Origin: an uncultured Saccharospirillaceae bacterium
GTDB taxonomy: Bacteria > Pseudomonadota > Gammaproteobacteria > Pseudomonadales > Natronospirillaceae
Assembly (NCBI GenBank): GCA_913063165.1
Contig: CAJXZL010000002.1
Span: 62,001 to 126,000 of the forward strand
Length of the DNA stretch: 64,000 bases
Direction of reading: 5' to 3'
The notes beneath the pieces are model-generated. The model worked only from the letters and a program-made list of their open reading frames with translations, ran no database searches and was not told the origin of the DNA. The position numbers and the translations under genes were made by a program. Position 1 is the first letter of the stretch, and each line of letters starts with the position of its first letter. This document shows, piece by piece, positions 1,565 through 10,259 of this stretch.

Positions 1565-2713
1565 ATGACCATGCCTGATTTGTCGCCACGCCGCGGATCT
1601 GCTGCAAGGATATCGTTGCAACTATTTGCACTGTCGTCCGCCATTTTATTCCAAATGTTGTTGGTAAAGCCGTTAAGTGCGAGTGAACAAAACAGCAATC
1701 AAACACCGGTAACTGTTACCGCCTATGCCCTTAAAAACCACAAACAGCTTGCATTGATATTGGCCTATGCCCGATATCGGGATGCCATGAAGTACGTGGA
1801 TTTTCAACTGGAATTGAAAAACCGTGTCAGTGAAATTGGCATAGCGACCTATAACAACCCCAATGCAATAGCCATTATTCCCATTATCGATTCAATTGAA
1901 TTAATGGTAAATACAAGTGCTTTAGCCATTGTCAATTTCGCCTATTCAGGTCCAATAACTGCAGTACTAGCCTCAGACAATCAAGACACCGATATTGACA
2001 AGCTAAATCTTACCGAAGCGTTGTTATTGAAGCTCGAATCACCTGTGTACACAGGTACAAAAGGTGCCATCTTAAATGATAAATCTCATACTGTAGAATC
2101 CCTGTGGACGAGCCGAATGATTACGGATCGATATGGCCTAAATATAATCAATTGGCCTGTCAGGCTGCTAAGGGTCGACGGTACTCAGATTGAACGCCAA
2201 CTAATTGAATTCGACAACCAAAACGTTATTCTATATGTGGGACCCTATTGGTTGCAGACCAATTACGACGATATGCAGGCCGTATTTGTTAGCGAGAAAA
2301 TGCCTGATGAACTTGGCCTCTACCGAGATGTCATGATCTCAAGTTTAGAAGGTAATGAGATCAATGCAGGTGCTGTCAAAGAAATCCTGTCTTTCATCGA
2401 ATTGTCTGCAACGGATATCGCTACCGCAGCCACCGAAGGTGGTTTAGCCTTCGATGTGCTACTGAATGACTTGCAATCGGTTATACCTGACTTGCAAAGT
2501 GACAATTTGAAAGGGTTAATTACCTTACCCCACATGATCTCAAGCGGATTGACATTCGAAGATATTGTCCATGCCTATACACCGCAGGATATTGCGTTGA
2601 AGGACATTACAGCAATTTACCAAGATACAGATAAACAAGGCCATTTCTTACCGCAATTAATGCTTGATACCCAGTTGATAACTGACTGGATATCCGTCGA
2701 AAACCTAAATTGA
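1565..2713 (+). CDS. Predicted exported protein of unknown family, first gene of a sensor operon
   Basis: I do not recognise the family of this 382-residue protein. The N-terminus has a basic stretch (SPRRGSAAR) followed by a hydrophobic segment (about residues 17-36) ending in LSASEQ, so export to the periplasm is likely. The mature part has an alternating alpha/beta feel (for example residues 44-130 and 160-240), which could be a periplasmic binding-protein-like fold, but no signature motif confirms that. The stop codon lies 15 bases before the likely ATG of a giant hybrid histidine kinase, which is followed after 27 bases by a response regulator-GGDEF gene, so the three are probably one operon. 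By position I infer that it presents a signal to the kinase's periplasmic domain. It lacks any predicted enzyme motif that I can see. Confidence 0.7.
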   Translation: MTMPDLSPRRGSAARISLQLFALSSAILFQMLLVKPLSASEQNSNQTPVTVTAYALKNHKQLALILAYARYRDAMKYVDFQLELKNRVSEIGIATYNNPNAIAIIPIIDSIELMVNTSALAIVNFAYSGPITAVLASDNQDTDIDKLNLTEALLLKLESPVYTGTKGAILNDKSHTVESLWTSRMITDRYGLNIINWPVRLLRVDGTQIERQLIEFDNQNVILYVGPYWLQTNYDDMQAVFVSEKMPDELGLYRDVMISSLEGNEINAGAVKEILSFIELSATDIATAATEGGLAFDVLLNDLQSVIPDLQSDNLKGLITLPHMISSGLTFEDIVHAYTPQDIALKDITAIYQDTDKQGHFLPQLMLDTQLITDWISVENLN

Positions 2714-2728
2714 TCGTTTTTTTTGGTT

Positions 2729-5700
2729 ATGGAAATACATAGCGTGAAGCAACTAGATCAAGTGAAAAAATATCCTTTAGCCCACTATATTATATTGTGG
2801 AGTGGCTTGATATTTCTTGTGCCTGTCGCGTTTATTCTTAGCGTTCCACTATATCTAAACTTTGAAAGCGTTGATAAGGCAAAGGAACTCTCCTTAGATG
2901 TCGATTTATCTTCCATTATGACGTCTATCGATGTGGTCGAACGGCGCCATTATGGTCAGGCATTAGGTATCTCTCGCAGTGGCAATATCAAACGTACTGC
3001 TAAGGATCTACTGAAATTAGCGAATAAATCGCCCCTTGGCACCACCATGAACCCTGAATTCGAGGCATTAGCTGACCGTTTTGAAACTTCAATATTCGAA
3101 AACATAGTGTTTAGAACATCAGTATTTGATGATGTACTCCTCCTCAATGTTTACGGAGATGTCGTCCTATCTCTTTATGACGATACTTTGAGTGGGCAAT
3201 ATTTTAGTGATACCTACCTTGAACAACAGGTTGTAATTGATGCATTGTCTACAAGTTTTCAAAATAGGATCATCCGTTTTACGGGCTACTTCCTTTCTGA
3301 ACCTGATGCCACTATAAAGTCTGGCTTTTATATAGCACCCTTGTCCTCAGAGGGGTTGGATGGCAATGGGCACCTCGGGTTTTTGCTTTTTAAGGTCAAC
3401 GGTGCAGCCTTATATAATGCGATGCAACCACCTTTTAGCGACTCTTTTTTCAAGAAAACATACATGTTAGACGACCAGTTTTCCTATCTAAACATTTCAG
3501 ATTCTGAATCAAGTCAACTGTTAAGCATCAATGCACAAGATCGTGTTGTGTTAGCGCGAAATATTGTAGAGATGGATACCCGTGACGAATACACACAGGT
3601 AGCAGACTCTTTTGTCACATTGGAAAATATTGATGGGAAAAAGCATAGCACTGTCTTGATTAAGAATCCTAAAGACAGCAGCTATTGGTCCTACTTGATG
3701 ATTCAAGTCGATAGCAACTTACTAAAGCGGCATAGCAACCTACTGATCGGTAGCGCCGTAATATCTTTTGTTATTTTTATAATTGCACTATTGCTGTTAA
3801 GTAAAGTCTTAAAACGACTTGTTCTCAGACCCATTTTTTCAACCATGGCAATTATGAAACGTACGCTTGATACTGGAATTGCCCCTGAGGCTACGGCATT
3901 AAATCATAGCGTTTTAGAGATTCAACAACTATATGAAGTAGTCAACGAATCTGCTATCGAGCTGTCTCGCCAATCTCTGTTATTAAATAATGCTTTTAAA
4001 AGTGCTCAAGACTCCATAAAAGAAAACGCTGATATTATGCAGGCAGTAGATAAGCACGGTGTCTATTTTGTAACGGATATTTGGGGGACGATCACTTGGG
4101 CCAATAATGCGCTGTGTTCAGTGCTTGGTGTCGAGGCTGGTGAATTGGTTGGCCGAAATCATCGTGACCTGATACTTAATGAATTTACAAAGCAGCAATT
4201 TGATGATGTATATGCAGATTTTCTCAGGGGCGTCTCGTGGAATGCAGAAATAACCAACCAAACACTCGATGGTAGAGAGTATCAATTGCGTTTGACCATA
4301 ACCCCGTCGATAAACAGCGAAGGTAAAGTACAAAAATTTTATGGTTTTGGCGTAGACGTTACGGAACAAAACCGATCGATTGACGAAGCTATTGAAAATG
4401 AGACGCAACTGCATCTGTTGTTGCAAAATGCAAATGCAAACCTATATAGATATGACATGGTAAATGAAAGATTTTACTTAGATGGCATGAATTATCAAAA
4501 GTTGGGGTATCTGTTTTCAGATGATCTTTCAAGTTTTGAAAAGTGGATTTCCCTCATCCATCCTGACGACAAACTACGTGTGGTCGAGCTATACCATCCT
4601 GAAAAAAATGCAGAAAAACCAATTGCTATTGAATACCGTATGGTCGGACTCGATGGACAGATTCTTTGGTTTTTAGATGCAGGTCCAGACAGAATGGAAC
4701 GAACTGCCTCTAATGTTTTGCACCCTATCCATTCGTACCCTGGCATTAGGATAGATATCACTGGCTCAAAAGAACTGAGACAGAAAAACTTAGAAAACCA
4801 AGCTGTGTTAGAAGCCATTTTCGAAAGCTCACTTGAGGGCCAAATTTTAACAAACACTCAGGGCGTTGTTTTTAACACAAGTAAAAATCTTACCACTTAT
4901 TTTTCTCGTATCAATATCATCGGCTTAACAATGAAGCAGTCGCTAGCCTCGTTTAAGCGCTCCATTGTGGAGGAATCAAATGAGAGGTTGTTGGATTTTG
5001 TTCAACGGCTTGGGGATGACCCAATAGCAACCCAGGCCATAAGTATTCATATTGTGGATGGCCGCAGTTTCACATTTACAACAGCGCCATTTACGATAGA
5101 CAACCAATACAGTGGGCGGATTTGGACCTTTGTAGACGTCACGGATGATGAAAATAAAAAGCAAGAACTGATCAATCAGAAAATAGAAGCTGAATCAGCC
5201 AACATTGCCAAATCTGAATTCTTAGCGGTGATAAGTCACGAAATCAGAACCCCACTGAACGGCGTCATAGGTATGCTGGATCTGATTAGAAGCGAGGAAG
5301 GAATTCCGATATCGACCAAGAACAGAGTAGAGATGGCCATCAATAGCGGCAATCGTCTTGTAGAATTAATGAACGAGATTACACAATGGTCAAGAATTGA
5401 ATCAGGTAATAGAACGCTTGTTAAAAAGCTTTTTGAGCCCGAGGTGGTGCTGTTTGACTCATTAAAGTCACTGTCAGCGTTAGCCAAAGATAAAGGCATT
5501 TCCATGATTGTGGAAGAGGATAACCAGACGATTATGCCATCGTTAATAATGCAGGGCGATGTCGCTAAATTCAAACAAGTGATATTTAACATCGTCGGCA
5601 ACGCCATTAAATTTACAAATGCAGGTTCTGTTACCGTTAAAGTCGGTTATGACATTGGTGAGAAAAACTTATGCACTATTCGATTACAGGTTATAGATAC

Positions 5701-7549
5701 CGGCATTGGGATTGCGAAAAAGGATATCGGAAAATTATTTACGCGCTTTCAACGTATCGATAACAGCACCTCCAGAACAACTGGGGGCACAGGATTAGGA
5801 CTCGCTATCACAAAATCCTCTATTGATATAATGGGTGGAACCATATCAATTTCGAGCGAGCTTGATAGGGGCACAACGGTTGAATTGACTATCCCCTTTT
5901 TATCAATTAATACTTTAGAATCAGATCTAAATATTCCAGAGTTAACGTCGAAGATTGTTGTCATTACATGCCTCAAAAATGAGGTCAAAGGTGTCCGATT
6001 ATCAGGCTATCTGCGGCGAATGAATGTCAAACATATGGCTTTTGAATCGTTAGAAATGTTAAATGCGCAGATTCACAGTAAGGACGCACCACTTCGTATA
6101 GAAAATGACGAGACGTTATTTGTATTGATCGATCATGGGTATGGAGCAGATTTAGTGGTCGATTGTTGGGGAAGTATTCAGAAATTACTAGAGCCCTCAG
6201 TCGTTCACGGCATTGTTTTGGTGGATGACATTCTGGGTTCCGAAGAGAAGAGATATGCCACATGTGGAATAGACGCAGTTTTAAACAGTCCTATTAATTA
6301 TCAGTATCTCTACAGCGCCGTTAGTCTTATCGCATCAAAAAGTCCCCTCATGGCATTCGCTGATCCCTTAATTAATATTGAATTTTTGGATTGTTTCACA
6401 CTCCCAAAATCAGCATTAACGCGAGCCGATTTTGACACTACATTTGGTCTGGGCAAGCGGATACTCGTAGTCGACGACCAGGAGATCAATTTACATGTGG
6501 CACGAGGTATTTTAGAAAACTTTTCTTTTAACGTAGACACCGTTTCTTCCGGATCTGAAGCGATCATTCAATTGCTCAATTCTAAGGATAAGCAACGGTA
6601 TGATGTATTGTTACTGGATATTCAGATGCCATCTATGGACGGTTTCCAATTGTGCAAAAACATCCGTGAAGGTCAGGGTGGACGTTTTTATTCCAATGTA
6701 CCTATCATTGCAGTATCAGCGAATACGAGAAAAGAAGATATGATCCTTGCGTTTGAGGCTGGCATGAATGACTTTATTTTCAAGCCAGTAACACAAGACA
6801 TCGTAATCGAAAAGCTCGCAAACCTTCTTGATTTTAGTAGTAAAGCTGTTCAATCAAACTCAGGTTCAAGCGACGTTACCAACAGACCCAAACCCGTCAA
6901 GAAACCAACGGATTCCAGTAAGAAAATCGCGAGCGTCGTAGATACTGATCAAATATGGAACAAGCATGAACTGGTAGAACGTATCGGTGACTCTGCTGAT
7001 TTGATGTCGGAGATATTGACGTCGGTGATAGATGATATGCCGGGCAAATTAGACGAACTATCAATCCATTTCGCTAAAAAAGATCTAGCAGGATGTAAAA
7101 TAACGCTGCATACATTGAAGGGGATTGGTGCAAATATTGGTGCGAATGAATTGGCTAGGTTATGTAAATCAGCAGAAACATACGCAGAAACCCAAGCAGT
7201 GGCTGAATTAAGCGCTGCTATTTTAGCAATTAAATCATCAGTCGCAGTCTTAACCGATATATTAAGTAACGATGCGAGTATGCAATCGGCTGGTGCCGTT
7301 AAGGCACGCGTAAGTGTAAGTGTAGATGTACCTGAGTTGCTTAAGATACTTGAAGCATTGCTCGACAACATTATGAGTGGTGGGTTTGTTTCGCATGCCT
7401 GTTTAATAGATTTACAAAAACTTTCAGCAAGCGACGAGAATCTCGCTGCAAAACTGACCGATATATCTAGGAATGTTTCCCATTTTAATTATGATAAAGC
7501 GATGGGCGATATTAGAGGCCTTATCAAGCAATTGAGCACAGAATTGTGA
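2729..7549 (+). CDS. Hybrid sensor histidine kinase with PAS domains, receiver and HPt
   Basis: This 1606-residue inner-membrane hybrid kinase runs an internal His-Asp-His phosphorelay. Order of parts: membrane segment (about 18-42), a large periplasmic sensor region, second membrane segment (about 340-362), then PAS domains at about 440-550 and 555-690 and a weaker third at 700-810. The HisKA domain follows, with phospho-accepting His837 in ISHEIRTPLNG, then an ATPase domain with N box (NIVGNAIKF), DTGIGI and GGTGLGLAI. A degenerate receiver-like segment follows (about 1070-1200). A true receiver has acceptor Asp1297 in LLLDIQMP and the DDQE acidic pocket. A C-terminal HPt domain has His1461 in LHTLKGIGANIGA. 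ATG at 2729 is preferred; a TTG six bases upstream is also in frame and neither has a clear ribosome-binding site. It sits between an exported protein and a response regulator-GGDEF gene, its likely input and output. Confidence 0.93.
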   Translation: MEIHSVKQLDQVKKYPLAHYIILWSGLIFLVPVAFILSVPLYLNFESVDKAKELSLDVDLSSIMTSIDVVERRHYGQALGISRSGNIKRTAKDLLKLANKSPLGTTMNPEFEALADRFETSIFENIVFRTSVFDDVLLLNVYGDVVLSLYDDTLSGQYFSDTYLEQQVVIDALSTSFQNRIIRFTGYFLSEPDATIKSGFYIAPLSSEGLDGNGHLGFLLFKVNGAALYNAMQPPFSDSFFKKTYMLDDQFSYLNISDSESSQLLSINAQDRVVLARNIVEMDTRDEYTQVADSFVTLENIDGKKHSTVLIKNPKDSSYWSYLMIQVDSNLLKRHSNLLIGSAVISFVIFIIALLLLSKVLKRLVLRPIFSTMAIMKRTLDTGIAPEATALNHSVLEIQQLYEVVNESAIELSRQSLLLNNAFKSAQDSIKENADIMQAVDKHGVYFVTDIWGTITWANNALCSVLGVEAGELVGRNHRDLILNEFTKQQFDDVYADFLRGVSWNAEITNQTLDGREYQLRLTITPSINSEGKVQKFYGFGVDVTEQNRSIDEAIENETQLHLLLQNANANLYRYDMVNERFYLDGMNYQKLGYLFSDDLSSFEKWISLIHPDDKLRVVELYHPEKNAEKPIAIEYRMVGLDGQILWFLDAGPDRMERTASNVLHPIHSYPGIRIDITGSKELRQKNLENQAVLEAIFESSLEGQILTNTQGVVFNTSKNLTTYFSRINIIGLTMKQSLASFKRSIVEESNERLLDFVQRLGDDPIATQAISIHIVDGRSFTFTTAPFTIDNQYSGRIWTFVDVTDDENKKQELINQKIEAESANIAKSEFLAVISHEIRTPLNGVIGMLDLIRSEEGIPISTKNRVEMAINSGNRLVELMNEITQWSRIESGNRTLVKKLFEPEVVLFDSLKSLSALAKDKGISMIVEEDNQTIMPSLIMQGDVAKFKQVIFNIVGNAIKFTNAGSVTVKVGYDIGEKNLCTIRLQVIDTGIGIAKKDIGKLFTRFQRIDNSTSRTTGGTGLGLAITKSSIDIMGGTISISSELDRGTTVELTIPFLSINTLESDLNIPELTSKIVVITCLKNEVKGVRLSGYLRRMNVKHMAFESLEMLNAQIHSKDAPLRIENDETLFVLIDHGYGADLVVDCWGSIQKLLEPSVVHGIVLVDDILGSEEKRYATCGIDAVLNSPINYQYLYSAVSLIASKSPLMAFADPLINIEFLDCFTLPKSALTRADFDTTFGLGKRILVVDDQEINLHVARGILENFSFNVDTVSSGSEAIIQLLNSKDKQRYDVLLLDIQMPSMDGFQLCKNIREGQGGRFYSNVPIIAVSANTRKEDMILAFEAGMNDFIFKPVTQDIVIEKLANLLDFSSKAVQSNSGSSDVTNRPKPVKKPTDSSKKIASVVDTDQIWNKHELVERIGDSADLMSEILTSVIDDMPGKLDELSIHFAKKDLAGCKITLHTLKGIGANIGANELARLCKSAETYAETQAVAELSAAILAIKSSVAVLTDILSNDASMQSAGAVKARVSVSVDVPELLKILEALLDNIMSGGFVSHACLIDLQKLSASDENLAAKLTDISRNVSHFNYDKAMGDIRGLIKQLSTEL

Positions 7550-7576
7550 CGTATCGATATCGCATGGAGTATTCAT

Positions 7577-8461
7577 TTGAGCGATAAAAAAATGCCAGTA
7601 ATAATGATCGTTGATGATGAACCCATCAACATTTCTATATTAGCCAATATATTTGAGTCCTCTTATGACATTAAGGTCGCTACCAGTGGTGCTCGCTGTT
7701 TGAGTCTAATTGAATCAGGTGTCACACCTGATCTCATTTTAGTAGATATCATGATGCCTGATTTGAGTGGTTATGAGGTACTGGAGCTTTTGAAGGCAGA
7801 TCCAACCACTATGAATATCCCCGTCATATTCGTATCAAGCAATGACACGCAAGCAGACGTAGCGAAGGGTATTAAACTGGGTGCATCCGATTATATTACC
7901 AAGCCTGTTTTTCCTGCCGTAGCCATTGCTCGGGTTAGTATGCATTTGCGCTTAAAACAACAATCAGATGAATTGCGGAAAATGGCACTATTTGACCAAT
8001 TAACCAATTTGTATAATCGACACTACTTAATCGAGGCAGGAACTCAGCGGTTATCAGAAAGCTATCGAAATAACAGCGCTCTGGCACTGATCATGCTAGA
8101 TATTGATAACTTCAAGCATCTGAATGATGTACACGGCCACGACTTTGGCGACAAAATTTTACAGCAAGTGAGTAAGACGATTTCAAAAGACTGTAGATCG
8201 ATCGACATTGTTTCTCGCTATGGTGGCGAGGAATTTTTTATTTTGTTACCTGGATGCGGCTTTGAAGAAGCAATGTCTAAGGCTGAGAGCTTGCGTGTTG
8301 CCATCGAAGAAAACGCAATGCACGCCATTAGGGTTACGGCAAGCTTTGGTGTCTGCGCTAAAAATGATACGGTTGAAACACTAGCCTCATTGATAAAGCG
8401 CGCCGATATCAATTTGTACAAAGCAAAAAATAATGGCAGAAACTGTGTATTTGGAGCTTGA
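7577..8461 (+). CDS. Response regulator with diguanylate cyclase (REC-GGDEF) output
   Basis: This 294-residue cytoplasmic protein has an N-terminal receiver (DDEP acidic pocket, acceptor Asp in LILVDIMMP near residue 57, Lys in ITKPV). A GGDEF domain from about residue 135 carries the active-site motif GGEEF. It should make cyclic-di-GMP when the receiver is phosphorylated. An RxxD inhibitory site (RSID) lies five residues before GGEEF, so feedback inhibition by product is expected. The start is TTG at 7577, supported by GGAG at 7566-7569 with seven bases of spacing; no ATG fits as well. It follows the hybrid kinase by 27 bases, and I infer that the kinase's HPt domain is its phosphodonor. 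This resembles WspR/PleD-type output proteins in architecture, not necessarily in target. Confidence 0.93.
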   Translation: MSDKKMPVIMIVDDEPINISILANIFESSYDIKVATSGARCLSLIESGVTPDLILVDIMMPDLSGYEVLELLKADPTTMNIPVIFVSSNDTQADVAKGIKLGASDYITKPVFPAVAIARVSMHLRLKQQSDELRKMALFDQLTNLYNRHYLIEAGTQRLSESYRNNSALALIMLDIDNFKHLNDVHGHDFGDKILQQVSKTISKDCRSIDIVSRYGGEEFFILLPGCGFEEAMSKAESLRVAIEENAMHAIRVTASFGVCAKNDTVETLASLIKRADINLYKAKNNGRNCVFGA

Positions 8462-8508: not shown

Positions 8509-8545
8509 AAAGCCACTGTCGCCGAAAAGCAACAGTGGCTTTTTG
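8509..8545. terminator. Bidirectional rho-independent terminator
   Basis: A 10-bp perfect stem (AAGCCACTGT at 8510-8519 with its complement at 8532-8541) is followed by a T-run on the plus strand and an A-run-derived T-run on the minus strand. It lies between the REC-GGDEF gene and the convergent malic enzyme gene and can serve both. Confidence 0.85.
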
Positions 8546-8549
8546 TCAA

Positions 8550-10259
8550 TTACACCCGCCTATAGGGCATATATTCCGCTTCCCACATGCGTTCGGCGAG
8601 ATAGCCATCTAGATTTTCTGGTAGAAAATCGATGGAACTATCTTTCTCTAGCATTTCTTCTAATACAGCCTTAGCAATCCTAAAGGATATGGTTCGTAGG
8701 TCGTGAATCTCAGGGTATACCGACCCATTGGCAAGCTGTTCGTCTGTTAGGCATTGTGCCAATTCAAACGCAGCTGTGGTAAACATATCTTTATCCATGA
8801 TCGATACTTTTGACAAGATAGCTGCCAATCCCACGCCTGGAAAGATAAATACATTATTACCTTGCCCCACGCGGTGAGTGACGCCCTTGTAAGTGACAGG
8901 CTCATATGGGCTGCCTGTCGCCACGATAGCCTGACCGCTACTCCATTTATATAAGTCTTCTGGTATCGCCTCTGAATGCGTTGTTGGGTTGGACAATGGA
9001 AAGATAATAGGGCGGTCTGAATGGCGGAGCATCAAGGATACATGAGTCTCTGTAAACGCTTGACCGATGCCACTGGTTCCAATCAATACCGTAACGGGCA
9101 CTTCTGTTAACAAGGACTCCAGATTGACTCGCTCTAGATCTGTCCAAGCAGTTACCTGTATACGAGATTTGGCGTAGGTGCGTTTGAATTCATCAAGGTT
9201 AGATCTGTCCGTCAGTACCACACCTTGACTGTCCAAAATAAAAATACGATCAGTAGCCTGTTCTGGTGTTAACCCATCCCGCACAAGTCCTGCATGAATT
9301 TGGTTGGCAACACCCACACCGCCAGCGCCAGCGCCATAAATGGCATAAATTTGATCGCTGATTCGTTCATTCTTGATACGATTGGCACCGATGACGCCTG
9401 CCAATACCACTGCTCCTGTACCCTGAATATCGTCATTAAAAGAGGGTAGGGTTTCGTGGTATCGCTCAAGATTATTAAACGCGTCCGACTTGCTAAAGTC
9501 TTCCCATTGTAAAACGGCTTTTGGAAATGCGTGTTTTACCTGAGCAACAAAGGTTGCAATAAATGTGTCGTAGGCCTCTCCAGTCATGCGTCTGTGTGGC
9601 ATTCCCAGATACATTGGGTCATTGAGTAACGACTCATTGTCGGTGCCGACATCCAATACAATGGGTAGGCAACTGGCGGGGTGTATGCCCGCGCCAAGGG
9701 TATATAGTGACAGCTTGCCAATGGGAATCCCCATACCACCGACACCTTGGTCACCAATACCTAAAATAGCTTTACTGTCGGTAACCACAATAATTTTGAT
9801 ATCTTTCGCACTAAAGTGATGGGCCATTTGGGCAATAGATGACACATTTTGTGGGGAGATATACAAACCGCGCGTTTTTTGGAATCGATGGCTGAACTCT
9901 TGGCAGGCCAATCCTACGGTAGGTGTATAAATTATCGGCGTCATTTCATCTAGGTGTCGAGACACCAATGCATAAAACAGTGTTTCGTTGCGGTCTTGCA
10001 GGGCACGAAGAAATACATATTTTGAAATATTTGAATCTTCAGACAAAAATCCTTCATAGGTTCTTTTTAATTGTGCATCGAATGTTTGAACCATGGGTGG
10101 CAATAATCCGACCAAATCAAAATCGATCCGTTCTTGTTCAGTGAACGCCGTGCTCTTATTCAATGTACGATCATTCAGTAATGCAGCGCCTGTTAGCGAG
10201 ACAGGTCTAAAATATGTTCCATCCTCGTCTTTCCAGCGCAGGTATTTTGCAATTGACAT
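8550..10259 (-). CDS. maeA: NAD-dependent malic enzyme
   Basis: The 569-residue cytoplasmic enzyme decarboxylates malate to pyruvate with reduction of NAD, linking the TCA cycle to pyruvate. The size and N-terminus match the large single-domain SfcA/MaeA type, not the 750-residue MaeB fusion. Visible signatures are YTPTVGLACQEFSH with the catalytic region, RGLYIS, the metal-binding WEDF and NDDIQGTGAVVLAG stretch, and the dinucleotide-binding GAGAGGVG motif. NAD preference is inferred from family membership. It is monocistronic, with a shared terminator downstream and about 170 bases to the next minus-strand gene upstream. Confidence 0.95.
   Translation of the reverse strand: MSIAKYLRWKDEDGTYFRPVSLTGAALLNDRTLNKSTAFTEQERIDFDLVGLLPPMVQTFDAQLKRTYEGFLSEDSNISKYVFLRALQDRNETLFYALVSRHLDEMTPIIYTPTVGLACQEFSHRFQKTRGLYISPQNVSSIAQMAHHFSAKDIKIIVVTDSKAILGIGDQGVGGMGIPIGKLSLYTLGAGIHPASCLPIVLDVGTDNESLLNDPMYLGMPHRRMTGEAYDTFIATFVAQVKHAFPKAVLQWEDFSKSDAFNNLERYHETLPSFNDDIQGTGAVVLAGVIGANRIKNERISDQIYAIYGAGAGGVGVANQIHAGLVRDGLTPEQATDRIFILDSQGVVLTDRSNLDEFKRTYAKSRIQVTAWTDLERVNLESLLTEVPVTVLIGTSGIGQAFTETHVSLMLRHSDRPIIFPLSNPTTHSEAIPEDLYKWSSGQAIVATGSPYEPVTYKGVTHRVGQGNNVFIFPGVGLAAILSKVSIMDKDMFTTAAFELAQCLTDEQLANGSVYPEIHDLRTISFRIAKAVLEEMLEKDSSIDFLPENLDGYLAERMWEAEYMPYRRV

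Follow-up and report, generated by a model that had tools for sequence, protein, structure and literature searches.

Does an exported protein encoded directly ahead of a hybrid histidine kinase and a REC-GGDEF protein serve them as a periplasmic sensing partner? This question is raised by a locus in a stretch of 64,000 nucleotides from an uncultured Saccharospirillaceae bacterium (contig CAJXZL010000002.1, positions 62,001 to 126,000; hereafter the window), in which three open reading frames (ORFs) follow each other on the + strand in a tight run (1565-2713, 2723/2729-7549 and 7577-8461). With the kinase start taken at the ATG at 2729, to which a TTG at 2723 is the alternative, the genes are separated by 15 and 27 bases, so that the ORF list reproduces both gaps given in an earlier interpretation made from the letters without database searches (the sequence-only reading). 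The three genes are:

1565-2713, + strand: gene 1, exported protein of 382 residues, by profile comparison an extremely diverged remote relative of NMT1-like (NrtA/SsuA-type) substrate-binding proteins of a receptor-associated clade
2729-7549, + strand: hybrid histidine kinase, 1606 residues from the ATG at 2729, assigned by Pfam, key residues and an hhalign match to dCache
7577-8461, + strand: predicted REC-GGDEF diguanylate cyclase, 294 residues, assigned by Pfam and by GGEEF, RxxD and D57

These genes probably constitute a phosphorelay from a periplasmic signal to cyclic di-GMP (c-di-GMP), with the gene 1 product as the sensing binding protein. Three points were shown by computation: the homology of the three parts, a gene order conserved across many genomes, and that the binding protein and the dCache domain diverge in a correlated way.

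When searched directly, the gene 1 protein matched none of the Pfam families (the cut-off of PF13379, NMT1_2, was not reached) and no PDB sequence, gave a single sub-threshold match in NCBIfam far below its cut-off, and had no match at E<=0.01 in 95 other related genomes. No close relative was found on viral contigs, genome contigs or plasmids, and the plasmids likewise yielded no match for its relative from a Neptuniibacter locus, L113. The gene occurs once in its own genome, with no second copy. When 390 genomes of the order were scanned less stringently, two good candidates emerged, one in G161, matched in two collinear pieces of a single reading frame, and one in G167, where a second, weaker piece was also matched. 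Each gene lies directly 5' of one for a hybrid kinase that contains dCache and HAMP, and each product matches NMT1_2 (1.6e-16 and 5.3e-19, respectively). Weak matches of the same scan in G177 and G234, with no kinase adjoining, were dropped. An alignment of the two candidates (A2) led to 73 loci from named genomes, which were selected by sequence and not by neighbours. Of the 70 loci in which a binding-protein ORF is present, 62 passed a length filter of 340-430 and entered the family profile; 58 relatives were used in alignment A3 and 37 in alignment A4.

Against this 62-relative profile gene 1 scored 33.4 bits, compared with 8.1 for the best of 2000 shuffles, which left the first 38 residues intact. 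The match falls into two collinear segments, with residues 26-85 aligned to profile positions 13-70 and residues 265-312 to positions 265-312, and among the 56 ORFs of the window the profile reported none other than gene 1. In hhalign, gene 1 and the clade were aligned with a local probability of 93.4% on residues 268-310. NMT1_2 was matched by all 37 clade relatives scanned with Pfam, whereas the window protein fails, and the sole PDB sequence match of the clade was 3un6, an ABC (ATP-binding cassette) substrate-binding protein. On these profile matches, the gene 1 protein is a remote relative of the NMT1-like substrate-binding proteins. The sequence-only reading had taken it for an exported protein of no recognised and possibly undescribed family, a view that gives way to this homology, which is reached via intermediate relatives. 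The N-terminus of the protein is signal-like, as judged from its residues, and the frame stays open for 382 codons with a codon-position composition resembling that of the neighbouring genes.

A likeness to OpuAC (glycine betaine), first suspected by eye, was rejected. Gene 1 was unlisted in a PF04069 scan of 96 genomes, neither of the two PF04069 matches at E<=10 in its own genome was listed at gene 1, its profile score was below zero, and neither the profile nor hhalign scored it better than chance. The neighbours of weak OpuAC matches were inspected and no adjoining kinase was found.

Gene neighbourhoods of the clade were called by bait BLAST, with Pfam for unclear cases, a crude procedure by which divergent permeases could be missed. 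Three of the 73 loci lack a binding-protein ORF and two end right after it, leaving 68 that are testable. The next gene encodes a dCache hybrid kinase in 51 of these, in 17 cases with a REC-GGDEF gene third. A further 12 bring the loci in which any dCache receptor or chemoreceptor comes next to 63: a dCache receptor that is truncated by the end of the contig or stops close to it (L090, L094, L105 and L124), a short broken dCache ORF (L088 and L149), a dCache-SpoIIE receptor (L099 and L128) or a chemoreceptor (L108, L118, L125 and L136, with a 4HB_MCP sensor by Pfam in three). The two SpoIIE loci, at 7917-11505 of L099 and 7971-11580 of L128, belong to two Methylophaga genomes, and the receptor following the clade member is a dCache-HAMP-PAS-SpoIIE phosphatase (called by Pfam on L099 and by bait on L128). 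The exceptions are L111, where a Peripla_BP_5 protein comes next and the kinase after it, L104 and L112, where the binding protein lies 3' of CheR-CheB and the kinase further upstream, L146, where binding protein and kinase are arranged head to head, and L086, where a REC-GGDEF protein comes next. By comparison, a dCache kinase follows any other ORF of these loci in only 2 of 688 cases.

The bait search detected no ABC permease in any of the 70 loci that have a binding-protein ORF, and the ABC ATPases there number three only, about 1.6-4.9 kb off. In contrast, among 13 loci with weak canonical NrtA-like matches, nine have a permease-like neighbour. A sample of the order gave nine strong matches in 8 of 390 genomes, several of them on the same contigs as the named loci and hence not independent. 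Gene 1 itself is positioned directly 5' of its dCache-like receptor, as in the clade. Whether homologues precede kinases had been put forward as a check by the sequence-only reading; they are not found mostly away from kinases, 63 of the 68 adjoining receptors. The clade context thus points to sensing and not to transport. L090, L111 and L119 encode an additional, Peripla_BP_5-like periplasmic binding protein next to the NMT1-like protein or to its kinase, an arrangement suggestive of receptors served by two binding proteins. A CheR-like gene follows the kinase at L083, L093, L096, L097, L145 and L151, and a CheB-like gene comes thereafter in five of the six.

The kinase matches the Pfam families HisKA, HATPase_c, one Response_reg and Hpt as well as PAS families. 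His837 is located in the H-box SHEIRTP, Asp1297 in the REC sequence LLLDIQMP and His1461 in the Hpt motif HTLKG, and all elements of a hybrid phosphorelay (HisKA His, HATPase, REC Asp and Hpt His) are present. The stretch at about 1070-1245 has no Pfam match and is probably a degenerated first REC. The periplasmic domain likewise received no Pfam name. Compared with the dCache domains of the 51 kinases, however, it was aligned by hhalign with 95.7% over 347 columns, and it scored 25.7 bits against their profile (best of 1000 shuffles, 8.5); as far as such profiles tell, it is a remote dCache. The third protein matches Response_reg and GGDEF in Pfam, with GGEEF at 216, RSID at 207 and D57. REC Asp, GG(D/E)EF and RxxD are all in place and fit a REC-GGDEF diguanylate cyclase whose activity is predicted. 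These results bear out much of what the sequence-only reading had described: the three phosphorelay residues fall, counted from the ATG at 2729, exactly on the H-box, the REC acceptor and the Hpt motif, and the cyclase is intact, with its RxxD site. From three PAS-like segments, two were recovered by Pfam (about 448-548 and 591-652 in the numbering from the TTG) and the third was not confirmed.

Sequence identities were then compared for 15 of the 17 three-gene loci. Binding proteins share a median identity of 63.4% among these members, compared with 21.7% between the window and the members; the two values are 36.0% and 16.0% for dCache, 50.8% and 36.4% for the kinase core, and 36.8% and 47.1% for the cyclase. 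The sensor side of the window is therefore the most changed part, the core is less so and the cyclase is ordinary. Given how far the binding protein and dCache of the window have departed from the clade, a change of ligand and of docking mode is probable in this lineage. Correlated divergence was analyzed in 47 of the 51 binding protein-kinase pairs. With the kinase core removed, binding-protein distance follows dCache distance (partial r 0.53; reached in 0 of 2000 permutations), while with dCache removed no such relation to kinase-core distance was obtained (partial r 0.005; 874 of 2000 permutations). This supports a sensor pair and agrees with a predicted docking of the binding protein on dCache; it also agrees with both genes travelling together as a cassette.

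We propose the following course of signalling. The gene 1 product would be a periplasmic protein of the substrate-binding type, of NMT1-like descent, with a role in sensing and none in transport. Its expected docking site is the dCache domain of the kinase, and binding or release of its ligand would alter kinase activity. Phosphate would then pass from His837 to Asp1297, from there to His1461 and finally to the REC-GGDEF protein, at Asp57, and this last transfer would alter the activity of the cyclase.

Several observations weigh against this proposal. A search with the kinase N-terminus gave one match of interest, in G009, a genome of the window's own family, which keeps a 1577-residue kinase and a REC-GGDEF gene without an adjacent binding protein. 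An aldehyde-dehydrogenase-like gene (named by eye) lies upstream, at the place of the binding protein, and a profile search of the G009 genome found no binding protein. The partner can therefore be lost, and the window copy may be on its way out. At the clade-invariant columns (identity of 95% or more across 58 relatives) gene 1 keeps 26 of 81, a rough count with the alignment poor in mid-protein; the leave-one-out minimum for clade members is 84%. Because so few of these columns are kept, and with NMT1_2 failing, pocket and docking surface of the gene 1 protein may be gone. Structure prediction from the single sequence reached a predicted local distance difference test score (pLDDT) of 31.8, and an AlphaFold2 model on 59 rows a mean of 57.1. 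The confident portion is limited to about residues 49-85 and 268-310, the middle being below 50, and since the model was built on the clade alignment it is not independent of it. With this model, Foldseek returned nothing at E<=0.001. As regards the two-lobe type II fold of binding proteins, the near-top rows in VIA came from this superfamily (3un6, a CmpBCD domain, Thi5, CmpA, NrtA and TauA), with Z at most 7.1, a level common by chance. Cyclase and kinase-core trees place the window weakly. Members of the system are not united in a single clade there, and the cyclase label requires 6 changes, a number as low in 279 of 500 shuffles. A single origin of the three-gene unit is therefore not claimed. 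The top matches of the window cyclase are third-gene cyclases of related systems (46-49% identity), but this likeness is not specific, as G009 (45%), G022 (44%) and G031 (42%) come close without an adjoining binding protein.

In G009 (L183, 2715-9484), kinase and REC-GGDEF gene are followed by a gene for a REC protein with an unnamed C-terminal part; third REC proteins similar to it were seen at L098 and L102.

The pair in G009 also lends substance to the idea that kinase and cyclase sense alone through dCache, with gene 1 as a decaying remnant of an ancestral partner and without a present role. Most clade-invariant residues are indeed gone from gene 1, and its identity is 22% compared with 63% within the clade. 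Yet a frame of 382 codons is still open at about 20% identity, with a coding-like composition and a signal-like N-terminus. A neutral remnant is unlikely because at such divergence the frame should long since have broken, and we consider this explanation improbable, though it is the most serious of those set against a sensing role. That gene 1 belongs to an undescribed family of unrelated envelope proteins would agree with the lack of any direct Pfam or PDB match and of any match above the NCBIfam cut-off. Two collinear profile matches far above the shuffles, the hhalign probability of 93% and the same gene position speak for common descent, which makes an unrelated origin very improbable. Least credible of all is a binding protein of an ABC importer encoded elsewhere, with an incidental place before the kinase. 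The superfamily serves mostly in transport, and the canonical NrtA-like weak matches adjoin permease-like genes in nine of 13 loci, but the clade has no ABC permease in its 70 loci and adjoins receptors, and the gene is single in its own genome.

The sensing role of gene 1 within a phosphorelay thus stays the preferred explanation. The dedicated periplasmic partner controlling c-di-GMP, as envisaged by the sequence-only reading, is well supported by gene context, in that homologues adjoin receptors and divergence tracks dCache; ligand binding by this very divergent copy and its docking on the kinase are predictions, and in G009 the kinase and cyclase occur without the partner. A wider reading, which we put forward tentatively and hold to be rather doubtful, is that a widespread and so far undescribed NrtA-like clade gave up transport and became a detachable ligand-binding subunit of transmembrane receptors that feed several outputs (hybrid kinases paired with c-di-GMP cyclases, SpoIIE phosphatases and chemoreceptors), co-evolving with dCache as a cassette, and that the window pair was re-tuned together to a new signal with the output fixed. 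The clade spans many marine genomes and several output types, and its hosts include the cultured Shewanella benthica, Pseudoalteromonas denitrificans, Litorivivens and Psychromonas hadalis, in which ligand and docking are testable. The window copy illustrates how far a sensor pair can drift with its output kept.

The run is flanked upstream, on the same strand, by a gene for a TamB-family protein (49-1350, matched in its C-terminal part) and downstream by a convergent gene for an NAD-type malic enzyme (8550-10259, identified by eye). Between the latter and the cyclase gene lies one further feature, which the terminator scan did not list:

8510-8547 (approximate), no strand assigned: inverted repeat with T-run, likely a two-way terminator, read by eye

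With the NMT1-like binding proteins (PF13379, NrtA/CmpA type, and their SsuA/TauA/ThiY relatives) gene 1 shares a remote sequence relation via the clade, but the window copy does not lie beside an importer and has lost most of the signature motifs. An NrtA-like protein serving as a sensor is described in a report on NasS of the nitrate/nitrite sensor NasS-NasT (PMC3795266). Once the clade's own members are set aside, the best match of its profile was a NasS-like gene following a NasT-like gene in G203 (names read from the neighbours). NasS, however, is a cytoplasmic protein without a signal sequence and binds an ANTAR protein, whereas gene 1 has a signal-like N-terminus and lies beside a kinase. 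In TorT-TorS and LuxP-LuxQ, a periplasmic binding protein activates the kinase encoded alongside. For BctC-BctE, a binding-protein gene beside the kinase is likewise described in PMC11113362 and PMC9602780, the latter putting the binding proteins characterised as switches of sensor kinases at about 10. For c-di-GMP networks, only SBP_bac_3 of the periplasmic-binding-protein clan is given as studied in the review PMC8846402. The literature searched, whose coverage mostly excludes subscription papers, yielded no account of NMT1-like proteins that are paired with kinases. A binding protein that switches a kinase is accordingly known logic, and within that same literature the clade, its range of outputs and the c-di-GMP pairing were not found. 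The window shares with TorT-TorS, LuxP-LuxQ and BctC-BctE a binding-protein gene adjoining the kinase, and differs in the binding-protein family, here NMT1-like and combined with dCache and a c-di-GMP output. The same order, domain plan and sizes (386, 1598 and 294 residues) recur at L113, from a Neptuniibacter metagenome-assembled genome, where the motifs are kept, HAMP is detectable and the kinase carries two REC domains, compared with one REC and no Pfam HAMP in the window.

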